38,150 bases of DNA from Kiritimatiellia bacterium (GTDB lineage: Bacteria; Verrucomicrobiota; Kiritimatiellia; SLAD01). The notes under the pieces were generated by a model that ran no database searches, had not been told where the DNA came from, and saw only the letters and a list, made by a program, of their open reading frames with translations. The translations under genes and the position numbers were made by a program. Every line of letters starts with the position of its first letter. Positions within the stretch are counted from its first letter, which is position 1. Below are positions 4,051 through 6,796 of the stretch, piece by piece. Location of the stretch: NCBI GenBank assembly GCA_007130845.1, contig SLRP01000203.1:1-38150 (forward strand), in the 5' to 3' direction.

Positions 4051-5217
4051 ATGGACAACGACGACAAAAGACCTCGCTTTGCAACCAGGGCCATTCACAT
4101 GGGACAAACCCCTGATCCGACAACGGGAGCAACCATACCCCCGATATACCTGTCCACCACTTACACGCAGGAAAGCCCCGGGGTACATAAGGGATATGAG
4201 TATTCGAGATCACAGAATCCCACCCGCACGGCCCTTGAAGCCTGTCTGTCGGGGTTGGAGGAAGGCGAGGATTGCGCGGTTTTTTCTTCAGGCCTGGCCG
4301 CCACGAATGCTCTATTGCAAAGCCTTCGGCCCGGCGACGGGTTCATAGCGGGTCATGACCTGTACGGTGGAACCTTCCGACTGCTGGAAGATGTGTTCAG
4401 GCCATGGGGCCTGGAAATAGCGCGAGCGGAATCCTCGGATCCTTCTGCTTATGAAAAGGCCATGAAGACGCTTGAGCGACCCAGAATGATATGGATTGAA
4501 ACACCAACCAATCCCCTCGTGGACTTGATTGACATAAGCTCAGTGGCGGAGATCGCAGGAAATAACGGATCTCTGCTGGTGGTGGATAACACCTTTGCGT
4601 CTCCGTGTTTGCAAAAGCCTCTTACCCTGGGCGCAGACATGGTTCTGCACAGCACCACCAAGTATCTGGGAGGGCATTCAGACGTCATTGGCGGCGCCCT
4701 GATAGCAAGGGAAGCCGGGCAACTTGAATCGGTACGGTTCATTCAGAATGCGGCCGGAGCCGTACCCGGACCCCTGGATTGCTACCTCATCCTCAGGGGA
4801 TTGAAGACCTTGGAGATTAGAATGCAAAGGCATTGTGCAAATGCCATGAAACTTGCGGAGGTATTGAACGGCCTGCCGGGAATCTCGCGAGTTTTGTATC
4901 CGGGCCTTCCGGATCATCCGGGACATGAGATCGCGAAAAAACAGATGCAGGGTTTCGGGGGTATGATATCGATAGAACTGGACGACGGGTTTGAACGGGC
5001 CAAAACATTTTGCACAAGCCTGAGAATTTTTTCTCTGGCGGAAAGTCTTGGAGGAGTTGAATCCCTAGTGTCGCATCCGGCCACCATGACGCATGCAAGT
5101 CTTCCGCCGTCGGAACGCCATGCGAGGCGCATCACAGACGGACTGGTCAGACTGAGCGTAGGTATAGAGGATGTACAGGATCTTATCGAAGATATAAATC
5201 AGGCCTTGCAGCCATAG
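4051..5217 (+). CDS. Cystathionine gamma-synthase / gamma-lyase (Cys/Met metabolism PLP enzyme)
   Basis: FATRAIHMGQ, YSRSQNPTRTALE, FSSGLAATNA, VVDNTFASP, LHSTTKYLGGHSDVIGG, SLGGVESLVSHPATMTH motifs; beta vs gamma and synthase vs lyase not resolved. Confidence 0.93.
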   Translation: MDNDDKRPRFATRAIHMGQTPDPTTGATIPPIYLSTTYTQESPGVHKGYEYSRSQNPTRTALEACLSGLEEGEDCAVFSSGLAATNALLQSLRPGDGFIAGHDLYGGTFRLLEDVFRPWGLEIARAESSDPSAYEKAMKTLERPRMIWIETPTNPLVDLIDISSVAEIAGNNGSLLVVDNTFASPCLQKPLTLGADMVLHSTTKYLGGHSDVIGGALIAREAGQLESVRFIQNAAGAVPGPLDCYLILRGLKTLEIRMQRHCANAMKLAEVLNGLPGISRVLYPGLPDHPGHEIAKKQMQGFGGMISIELDDGFERAKTFCTSLRIFSLAESLGGVESLVSHPATMTHASLPPSERHARRITDGLVRLSVGIEDVQDLIEDINQALQP

Positions 5218-5237
5218 TCCATGGAACGGAGGCTGGG
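5188..5237. repeat. Direct repeat copy 1 (50 bp), overlapping the 3' end of the cystathionine gene
   Basis: gaagatataaatcaggccttgcagccatagtccatggaacggaggctggg; 44/50 identical to 5715-5764 by hand alignment. Confidence 0.93.
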
Positions 5238-5309
5238 TTCCGAAATGGGACACCCATTCAGTCGATCGGGCTTTTGAAGCCGCTAAAGCGATGACGGACA
5301 AGACGGCGT

Positions 5310-5320
5310 AAGCGGAGTCG
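5310..5320 (+). repeat. Outer inverted repeat, left arm (AAGCGGAGTCG)
   Basis: Exact reverse complement CGACTCCGCTT occurs at 5562-5572. Confidence 0.85.
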
Positions 5321-5323
5321 GTT

Positions 5324-5400
5324 AAGGGTGGCGGGCAAGGGTTTCGGTTAAGAGTATTCGAGTAAGGGTGGCCGCGTAAGTGTATCCGGTTAAGGATATT
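5324..5400 (+). repeat. Left array of degenerate 13-14 bp phased repeats (AAG starts at 5324, 5337, 5350, 5364, 5378, 5392)
   Basis: AAGGGTGGCGGGC / AAGGGTTTCGGTT / AAGAGTATTCGAGT / AAGGGTGGCCGCGT / AAGTGTATCCGGTT / AAGGATATT read directly. Confidence 0.85.
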
Positions 5401-5501
5401 ATACCGCCTTTGAAAGCGCCGCAAGCATTACCGCTACGCGATGTTCAGAGCGATGGACCACAAGCTTCTCATGCCCGAAAGGTTCCGTCATAATCCCGGC
5501 T

Positions 5502-5560
5502 CTTTACACTTAACCGGATACACTTAAACGGCTACACTTAATCGGATATCCTTACCCGAC
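5502..5560 (-). repeat. Right array of the same 14-bp repeat in inverted orientation (CTT at 5509, 5523, 5537, 5551)
   Basis: Reverse complement: AAGGATATCCGATT AAGTGTAGCCGTTT AAGTGTATCCGGTT AAGTGTA. TAAGTGTATCCGGTTAAG (5377-5394) and CTTAACCGGATACACTTA (5509-5526) are a perfect 18-bp inverted pair. Confidence 0.88.
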
Positions 5561-5561
5561 T

Positions 5562-5572
5562 CGACTCCGCTT
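5562..5572 (-). repeat. Outer inverted repeat, right arm (CGACTCCGCTT)
   Basis: Exact reverse complement of 5310-5320. Confidence 0.85.
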
Positions 5573-5714
5573 CCCCGCCTTCCGATATTCTCGCAGTCGA
5601 AACATCCGCTCATCCCTTTATACGAACAGGCTCCATTCACATCCATGAGACACCACAATAACGCAATCGTTCCGTTGCAATTATGACTCGATTTCGAGGT
5701 CACCCGGAACACAG

Positions 5715-5764
5715 GAAGATATTAATCAGGCCTTATAACCGTAGTCCATGGAACGGAGGCTTGG
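5715..5764. repeat. Direct repeat copy 2 (50 bp), overlapping the 3' end of tsaD
   Basis: gaagatattaatcaggccttataaccgtagtccatggaacggaggcttgg; 44/50 identical to 5188-5237. Confidence 0.93.
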
Positions 5765-6796
5765 ATAGACATTGTCCGGGGCAGGCGGAGCCGATCCATT
5801 CAGTGACAGTGCACCGGCCAATCCGGCGATCATGGCTGCGTTATCAGTACAATACTCGAATGGAGCAATAAGGAGTCTGGATCCAAGGCGTTCGGACGTG
5901 CTTTCGAGCATCGTCCTGAGCCGTTTATTTCTTGCAACGCCTCCCACGCACGCGATAGCCCGGACCTTCTCATGAACTACCGCATTTTCAAGGCGGTCCA
6001 GCAGGGAATCAAATACAGCTTCCTGATAGGCGGCGGCGACATCTCCAAGGTCTTCCCCTGCCCTGGACTCAGGGTGATTCCTGACATGATACAGCAGGGC
6101 TGTCTTCAAGCCGCTGAAACTGAAACAGCAGTCGCGCCGCATGCCGTCTATCAGGGCTTCACCGCCTCTGCCCTTTCCCTTCAGTATGCCGCGCGGAAAA
6201 TCGATGCGGCCCGGGTTGCCCCCTTGAGCAGCCTTCTCAATTGCCGGCCCGCCCGGATATCCCAGACCTAGAACAGTAGCTCCCTTATCCAGCGCTTCAC
6301 CCGCCGCATCATCCAGGGTATGGCCAAGCACCGTGAAGTTTCGGACGTCGTCGACTCGGACCAGCATGGTATGTCCTCCTGAAACCAGAAGAACTACCAT
6401 TGGACAAATCTCATCCATGGACAAATCCGAACCGAGAAAAACAGAGTAAAGATGAGCTTGAAGGTGGTTAATTCCCAAAAGCGGAATATCTAATCGCAGG
6501 GAAAGCGCCCGTGCCGTTGTTACACCCATTAAAAGCGAGCTTGCCAGGCCGGGACCTTGCGTTACAGCAATGGAGTCAATGTCATACCAATCAGCCCCGC
6601 ACTGGTCCAGAGCTTGTCGTGTTACGTCCGGTAAAGCTTCAAGGTGGCGACGTGACGCGACTTCCGGAACGACTCCGCCATATTGAGCGTGTTCGGCAGC
6701 CTGGCTCAACACAATATTAGATCGTACTTCACGGCCATCAGCGACAACAGCGGCGGACGTTTCGTCGCAAGAGGTTTCGATGCCGAGAATCAGCAT
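5726..6796 (-). CDS. tsaD: tRNA N6-adenosine threonylcarbamoyltransferase TsaD
   Basis: MLILGIETSCDETSAAVV, GINHLQAHLYS, LLVSGGHTMLV, CVGGVARNKRLR motifs. Confidence 0.97.
   Translation of the reverse strand: MLILGIETSCDETSAAVVADGREVRSNIVLSQAAEHAQYGGVVPEVASRRHLEALPDVTRQALDQCGADWYDIDSIAVTQGPGLASSLLMGVTTARALSLRLDIPLLGINHLQAHLYSVFLGSDLSMDEICPMVVLLVSGGHTMLVRVDDVRNFTVLGHTLDDAAGEALDKGATVLGLGYPGGPAIEKAAQGGNPGRIDFPRGILKGKGRGGEALIDGMRRDCCFSFSGLKTALLYHVRNHPESRAGEDLGDVAAAYQEAVFDSLLDRLENAVVHEKVRAIACVGGVARNKRLRTMLESTSERLGSRLLIAPFEYCTDNAAMIAGLAGALSLNGSAPPAPDNVYPSLRSMDYGYKA

Follow-up and report, generated by a model that had tools for sequence, protein, structure and literature searches.

Two mirrored arrays of a short repeat lie between two convergent genes in a draft genome of a Kiritimatiellia bacterium. 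What is this structure, and how did it come to be there? It was analysed within the window, the whole stretch of 38,150 nucleotides considered here, and across 288 genomes of the class. The explanation that we consider probable is that the structure is a deleted copy of an element carrying a gene for a 23S rRNA-intervening sequence protein (IVP, Pfam PF05635), that its arrays are putative sites for the cognate IVP and that host or helper enzymes join the strands.

Anatomy of the element and its copies

A sequence-only reading had placed the feature at 5310–5572. The feature is real, but these limits take in only the middle of a larger element, 5233–5714, inserted at the tail-to-tail junction of metB and tsaD. 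Its parts and surroundings are as follows.

4051–5217, plus strand: metB-like host gene (Cys/Met metabolism PLP enzyme), with its stop within the left duplication copy
5188–5232, plus strand: left copy of the target duplication, 45 bp, GAAGATATAAATCAGG...GGAGG, containing the metB 3' end
5233–5714, no strand assigned: the full element, 482 bp (the genome has ~14 copies); its limits follow from the terminal inverted repeats, the direct repeats on either side and comparison with homologous copies
5233–5243, plus strand: left terminal inverted repeat (TIR), CTGGGTTCCGA (family consensus CTGAGTTCCGA)
5309–5398, plus strand: left array, a variant unit TAAGCGGAGTCGG and six CGNNTAAGNGT-type units, spacing 13–14
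5399–5491, minus strand: IVP gene remnant of 30 codons, MTEPFGHEKLVVHRSEHRVAVMLAALSKAV*, the first ~10 codons fused in frame to the last ~17
5505–5572, minus strand: right array, four oppositely oriented units spaced exactly 14 bp apart, and a variant end unit
5704–5714, minus strand: right TIR, CCGGAACACAG (family consensus TCGGAACTCAG)
5715–5759, plus strand: right copy of the target duplication, 45 bp, containing the tsaD 3' end
5726–6796, minus strand: tsaD host gene, with its stop within the right duplication copy

The stop codons of the convergent metB and tsaD both fall in the duplication, and each gene has an intact 3' end. The left duplication copy, when compared over 50 bp with 5715–5764, is 88% identical. 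As described earlier, the left array has six AAG units (5324, 5337, 5350, 5364, 5378 and 5392) and the right array four CTT units (5509, 5523, 5537 and 5551) that are exactly 14 bp apart. A 14-bp phasing had been proposed for both arrays: it is correct for the right one, but spacing in the left is mixed (13, 13, 14, 14, 14). The perfect 18-bp inverted pair (5377–5394 / 5509–5526) was found again, and sits within a pair of 51-bp arms that are 82% complementary. The outer 11-bp pair (5310–5320 / 5562–5572) is also present, but it is not a separate repeat: it is the first variant unit (TAAGCGGAGTCGG) of each array. The two-unit pattern TAAGNGTNNNCGNNTAAGNGT has four matches in the window, all within the region first reported, and none in 100 dinucleotide shuffles.

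Arms of this length raise the alternative that the hairpin itself is functional, as a terminator, an RNase III substrate or a small RNA. The window region indeed folds far better than its shuffles (z = −6.6), and RNase III excises 23S intervening sequence (IVS) elements at such stems (PMC4990558). However, in 13 elements of another genome of the class, G134, there is no sign of compensatory pairing at the position where facing units vary: Watson–Crick pairs number 4 against 4.4 in shuffles and 3 against 5.9, which argues, within this small sample, that the arms are kept for their sequence and not for pairing. Moreover, the conserved letters are maintained in each arm independently, both orders of the arrays (R..F and F..R) are found, and no Rfam family matches at the element. 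A functional RNA is very improbable.

When positions 5290–5590 were searched against the window's genome, 34 matches on ~16 contigs were returned. Many copies are located at contig ends, as dispersed repeats are in draft assemblies. When aligned, the copies share a common unit of ~400–480 bp that starts with CTGAGTTCCGAAATGGGACACC and ends with GGGCACTCGGAACTCAG; beyond it the flanks differ, with direct repeats abutting the TIRs. These direct repeats are long and variable target duplications. The four that were measured range from 16 to 75 bp (45–47 bp in the window, 75 in C171, 49 in C175 and 16 in C209), that of C216 was read by eye as 17 bp, and C192 and C16, apparently one copy split by assembly, have ~29 bp or more of common flank. 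One further copy is interrupted by a ~1.5 kb insertion, apparently another insertion sequence (G000:C217:12872–14331). The suggestion of a mobile family is thus borne out by ~13 further copies, variable flanks, long target duplications and a short terminal inverted repeat. Existing copies, together with a 13/14-bp spacing kept class-wide, are the opposite of what the sequence-only reading had named as counting against the idea.

IVP genes between mirrored arrays

The spacer between the window's arrays is coding-derived, and its origin is revealed by relatives in which mirrored CGNNTAAGNGTNNN arrays directly flank tandem two-domain IVP genes, the start and stop codons lying within tens of bp of the arrays. 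Genome G134 harbours two longer elements, L270 and L269, with a gene between mirrored arrays: both genes belong to PF05635, and the L270 protein displays two domains (E = 1.8e-29). Further array–IVP–array elements are L327 (G134), L333 (G215), L341 (G241), L340 (G221) and L344 (G001), the last with seven units on each side of the gene. When set beside intact IVPs (L270, MTQPFGHEKL...RRIAAMLTALSKVVGND*, and also L327), the window spacer reads as the first and last codons of an IVP, so that this copy has lost the interior of the gene in frame. Comparison of these sequences shows that the window element is a copy of a dispersed IVP element, internally deleted and non-autonomous. Its earlier likening to a MITE is right in form, the copy being both internally deleted and non-autonomous. 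Copy C230 carries an independent deletion that retains more of the C-terminus.

The association extends beyond single loci. IVP terminal motifs are 17-fold denser within 250 bp of arrays than in the remainder of those loci, a ratio that is approximate as it stems from 11 versus 5 matches, and all 20 array-positive genomes tested encode an IVP. PF05635 proteins occur in 243 of the 288 genomes of the class. The window's genome itself contains, on C92, an intact IVP gene between mirrored arrays of another type, with a direct repeat of ~53 bp on its flanks. An intact TAAGNGT-clade IVP was not seen in this genome, which is 84% complete, and on that account its copies may be stranded. Inverted repeats flanking single-domain IVPs are less clear (3/10), in part because gene starts are mis-set in that group. 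A structure model of the IVP from a two-sequence alignment was of poor quality (pLDDT 54).

Several loci display additional arrangements. At L331, L311, L332 and L343, array-bearing sequence is duplicated on both sides of a two-domain IVP gene (direct-repeat scores 49–146); at L331 the whole hairpin is duplicated on both sides, as though a solo hairpin could be a unit in its own right. At L292 (G000:C194:76–903) a very divergent two-domain IVP lies between tandem arrays of the ACGATTACGG type, with several extra copies of the ACGATTACGG repeat block alongside, and similar ACGATTACGG repeats stand beside TAAG arrays in the MAG JAQULY01. In G134, L269, L275, L325 and L327 have a common terminal inverted repeat, TTCCGCAGAATCTGTGGGT, which in L325 surrounds an IVP gene whose arrays are of another type; these longer G134 elements have terminal repeats and no detectable target duplication.

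Across the class, the two-unit pattern TAAGNGTNNNCGNNTAAGNGT of the 14-bp unit CGNNTAAGNGTNNN is present in 64 of 288 genomes and 42 of 113 genera, with up to 79 matches per genome and ~0 for a reversed-pattern control. The unit reads CG-NN-TAAG-N-GT-NNN across 223 distinct arrays, at spacings of 14, 13 and 15 bp in 510, 188 and 30 cases respectively, and there is no conservation beyond the array limits. Each class genome examined has its own multi-copy array families, and gene-less arrays have no recurrent neighbour gene. Named matches to the unit on GTDB contigs are nearly all in MAGs of Kiritimatiellae, Lentisphaerae, Verrucomicrobia or other PVC bacteria; chance may account for the few in Bacteroidales, Cupriavidus and Paenibacillus. 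The narrow array pattern of the G000 type is absent from GTDB contigs, and viral contigs contain no three-unit match. Outside the window's genome a duplication is undetectable around most arrays and is seen in a minority of elements. At three loci of a SKVN01 MAG (L138, L183 and L144) the direct repeats flanking the elements are 16–17 bp long and related in sequence (TGNNGTTACNNNYTAG), a hint of target preference.

Could the element be an ordinary MITE of an insertion sequence with a DDE transposase and long duplications, IS1634- or IS1202-like, whose TIR is the transposase site and whose arrays and IVP remnant are cargo? Long and variable target duplications are known for IS1634, and long ones also for IS1202-type families. 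In the window's genome the duplications exactly abut the 11-bp TIR, which lies ~75 bp out from the left array; the unit could thus have been moved by a separate transposase that acts on the TIR. On the other side, the genome (84% complete) contains no IS1634 transposase, IS1634 alone having been tested, and an IS1634-type transposase was rejected as mobiliser. None of 12 TIR matches was seen to delimit a longer TIR-bounded element or one with a transposase. Furthermore, the arrays recur class-wide without the CTGAGTTCCGA / TCGGAACTCAG TIR, and flank IVP genes in many lineages. We judge such a MITE unlikely.

An integron integrase was also considered as the arrays' enzyme and dropped, as none of 30 IntI loci had an array within 1.5 kb. 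IntI is nonetheless commoner in array-positive genomes (41/64 versus 80/224, Fisher p = 9e-5). Integron integrases of the TIGR02249 family occur in 121 of 288 class genomes, which seems unusually common, and in the MAGs Loclat bin-14761 and GL140_6 TAAG-type arrays repeatedly come directly after an integron-integrase-like gene or truncated C-terminal copies of one (L128:4234–5199, with the array at 5295, L127, L134, L088 and L087), an arrangement that is not general, since the 30 loci without a nearby array lie elsewhere.

Array type follows the IVP clade

Two-domain IVPs are associated with at least eight array types, including GTACGAG, ACGATCGGGAC, GATTAGGG, GATTAAGTA and CTTTGTCG. For 19 of 24 two-domain IVP genes the flanking inverted repeats exceed the 95th percentile of mismatched-flank controls. 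When array types, labelled by eye, are placed on a maximum-likelihood IVP tree, 11 changes are required against a shuffled mean of 16.1, and none of 200 shuffles was as low. An automatic k-mer test gives the same picture: in pairs from different genomes, flank k-mer sharing rises with protein similarity (Mantel r = 0.523, p ≤ 0.0002), and sharing is no greater when both genes come from one host than when the hosts differ. Genes from three host families, among them one from the genome of the window, fall in the GTACGAG clade (support 100/100), the TAAGNGT clade (99/97) comprises genes from four, and G134 accommodates six array types in one genome, each on a separate part of the tree. Across two-domain IVPs, the array motif tracks the IVP clade rather than the host.

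This pattern bears on the notion that the arrays are binding sites of a host protein, for nucleoid organization, uptake or segregation, and are maintained by the host. They are intergenic, occur class-wide and combine a conserved core with variable spacers, much as such sites would. Yet several array types coexist per genome, the type follows the IVP clade across hosts and the presence is patchy (64/288 genomes), all of which makes host-maintained sites the remotest of the explanations weighed. The match between array type and clade is most simply read as recognition by each IVP of an array of its own, and we infer from these sequence relationships that an IVP would bind its cognate array. What the evidence connects with the arrays is IVP genes rather than movement itself.

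A related explanation retains this recognition and dispenses with mobility: the arrays would serve IVP autoregulation or mark the element's RNA, and the copies would have spread via unrelated repair or recombination. In its favour, only tens of bp separate the arrays from the start and stop codons of the IVP gene, the IVP has no catalytic domain and, outside the window's genome, only a minority of elements display duplications. Against this, gene-less dispersed copies have kept both arrays through independent deletions, and autoregulation has no need of arrays in such copies. We hold this explanation to be rather unlikely.

Proposed mechanism and comparison with known systems

In the mobile-element explanation that we prefer, the cognate IVP, putatively an oligomer-forming protein built as a helical bundle, would recognise the arrays in cis; in Xanthomonas the related protein assembles from four-helix bundles into a homopentamer (PMC4990558), and the sequence match to 2GSC is weak (E = 0.0017). 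Each end offers several units in the same direction, to which an IVP oligomer would bind so that the two ends are paired. The sequence-only reading, which envisaged same-direction recognition sites mirrored at both ends, was right as to form. No transposase, recombinase or reverse transcriptase is tied to the element. As the IVP lacks a recognisable nuclease or polymerase, cutting and joining are assigned to host or helper enzymes, which would introduce two staggered nicks 16–75 bp apart, fill-in then creating the duplication. Deleted copies lose the gene and retain both arrays, which suggests that the arrays are needed in cis and that the IVP can act in trans. The overall function would be akin to that of REPIN/RAYT, with the IVP in place of the HUH transposase.

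To our knowledge, PF05635 proteins have had no known role since their discovery inside 23S rRNA genes. The match of protein clade and repeat type suggests a first handle on the role of these poorly understood proteins, and the first concrete putative substrate for an IVP: a short, defined repeat for each clade. Genomes with several IVP clades provide natural mismatched pairs, usable as controls. If the IVP also moves elements, a class of bacterial mobile elements has been missed by annotation pipelines, since the gene is labelled 'four helix bundle protein' and the ends resemble low-complexity repeats. Such a class would have a driver without a nuclease or polymerase of its own, each clade being tuned to its own short tandem repeat, and within it the rRNA IVS elements, known for 30 years, would form a specialised branch.

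Each near relative has a defining feature that the element lacks. MITEs of the IS1634/IS1202 type are likewise small, non-coding, multi-copy and TIR-bounded (here CTGAGTTCCGA / TCGGAACTCAG); the present element differs in its IVP remnant and in having no matching transposase, IS1634 being the only one tested. General DDE MITEs create short duplications of fixed length, whereas those found here measure 16, 45–47, 49 and 75 bp. The earlier comparison with Tn7- or Mu-like ends is not supported: such transposons encode a TnsB/MuA-type DDE transposase, while the relatives' arrays enclose only a PF05635 gene, and the duplications are long and variable (16–75 bp). The PF05635 fold has a homologue in Avd, the accessory protein of diversity-generating retroelements (DGRs; PMC10053308). 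The partner of Avd is a reverse transcriptase, whereas the present element has no such partner that could be found: RVT_1 is absent at E ≤ 0.001 from the window's genome (84% complete), and no template/variable repeat pair, as in DGRs, was seen.

REPIN/RAYT systems offer a parallel, as a single-gene driver lies between mirrored repeats and many dispersed gene-less mirrored copies, on which the driver acts in trans, accompany it (for a reference description, see PMC3116915). Here, in contrast, no HUH/Y1 transposase stands at the arrays: the candidate driver is PF05635, and the two Y1-type genes of the window's genome (C27 and C203) have no arrays nearby. The unit is a 13/14-bp tandem array and not the 20–40 bp hairpin of a REP, and the present element has target duplications.

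The 23S rRNA IVS of Leptospira, Coxiella, Brucella and Xanthomonas resembles the element in its inverted-repeat stem ends, in the PF05635 (S23/IVP) gene in the loop and in being regarded as selfish. In the Coxiella IVS, two to three tandem heptamers, variable in number, precede the S23p gene (PMC4990558). A comparable stem is present here (51-bp arms, 82% complementary, fold z = −6.6), and the PF05635 gene is found in full-length relatives, the window copy retaining its first and last codons only. Unlike the IVS, the element lies between metB and tsaD in a window without rRNA, the relatives' protein is the tandem two-domain form, and the ends are arrays whose motif tracks the protein clade; long target duplications occur in the window's genome, and gene-less derivatives are abundant. 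A search of open-access full texts, with subscription papers and preprints outside its range, returned the Coxiella IVS and DGR papers cited above and no published description of dispersed IVP elements with cognate arrays. That two-domain IVPs and their cognate arrays constitute a new class of mobile element, with a helical-bundle driver, gene-less derivatives spread in trans and long staggered target duplications, of which the rRNA IVS would be one branch, is a proposal for and against which we find the balance even.
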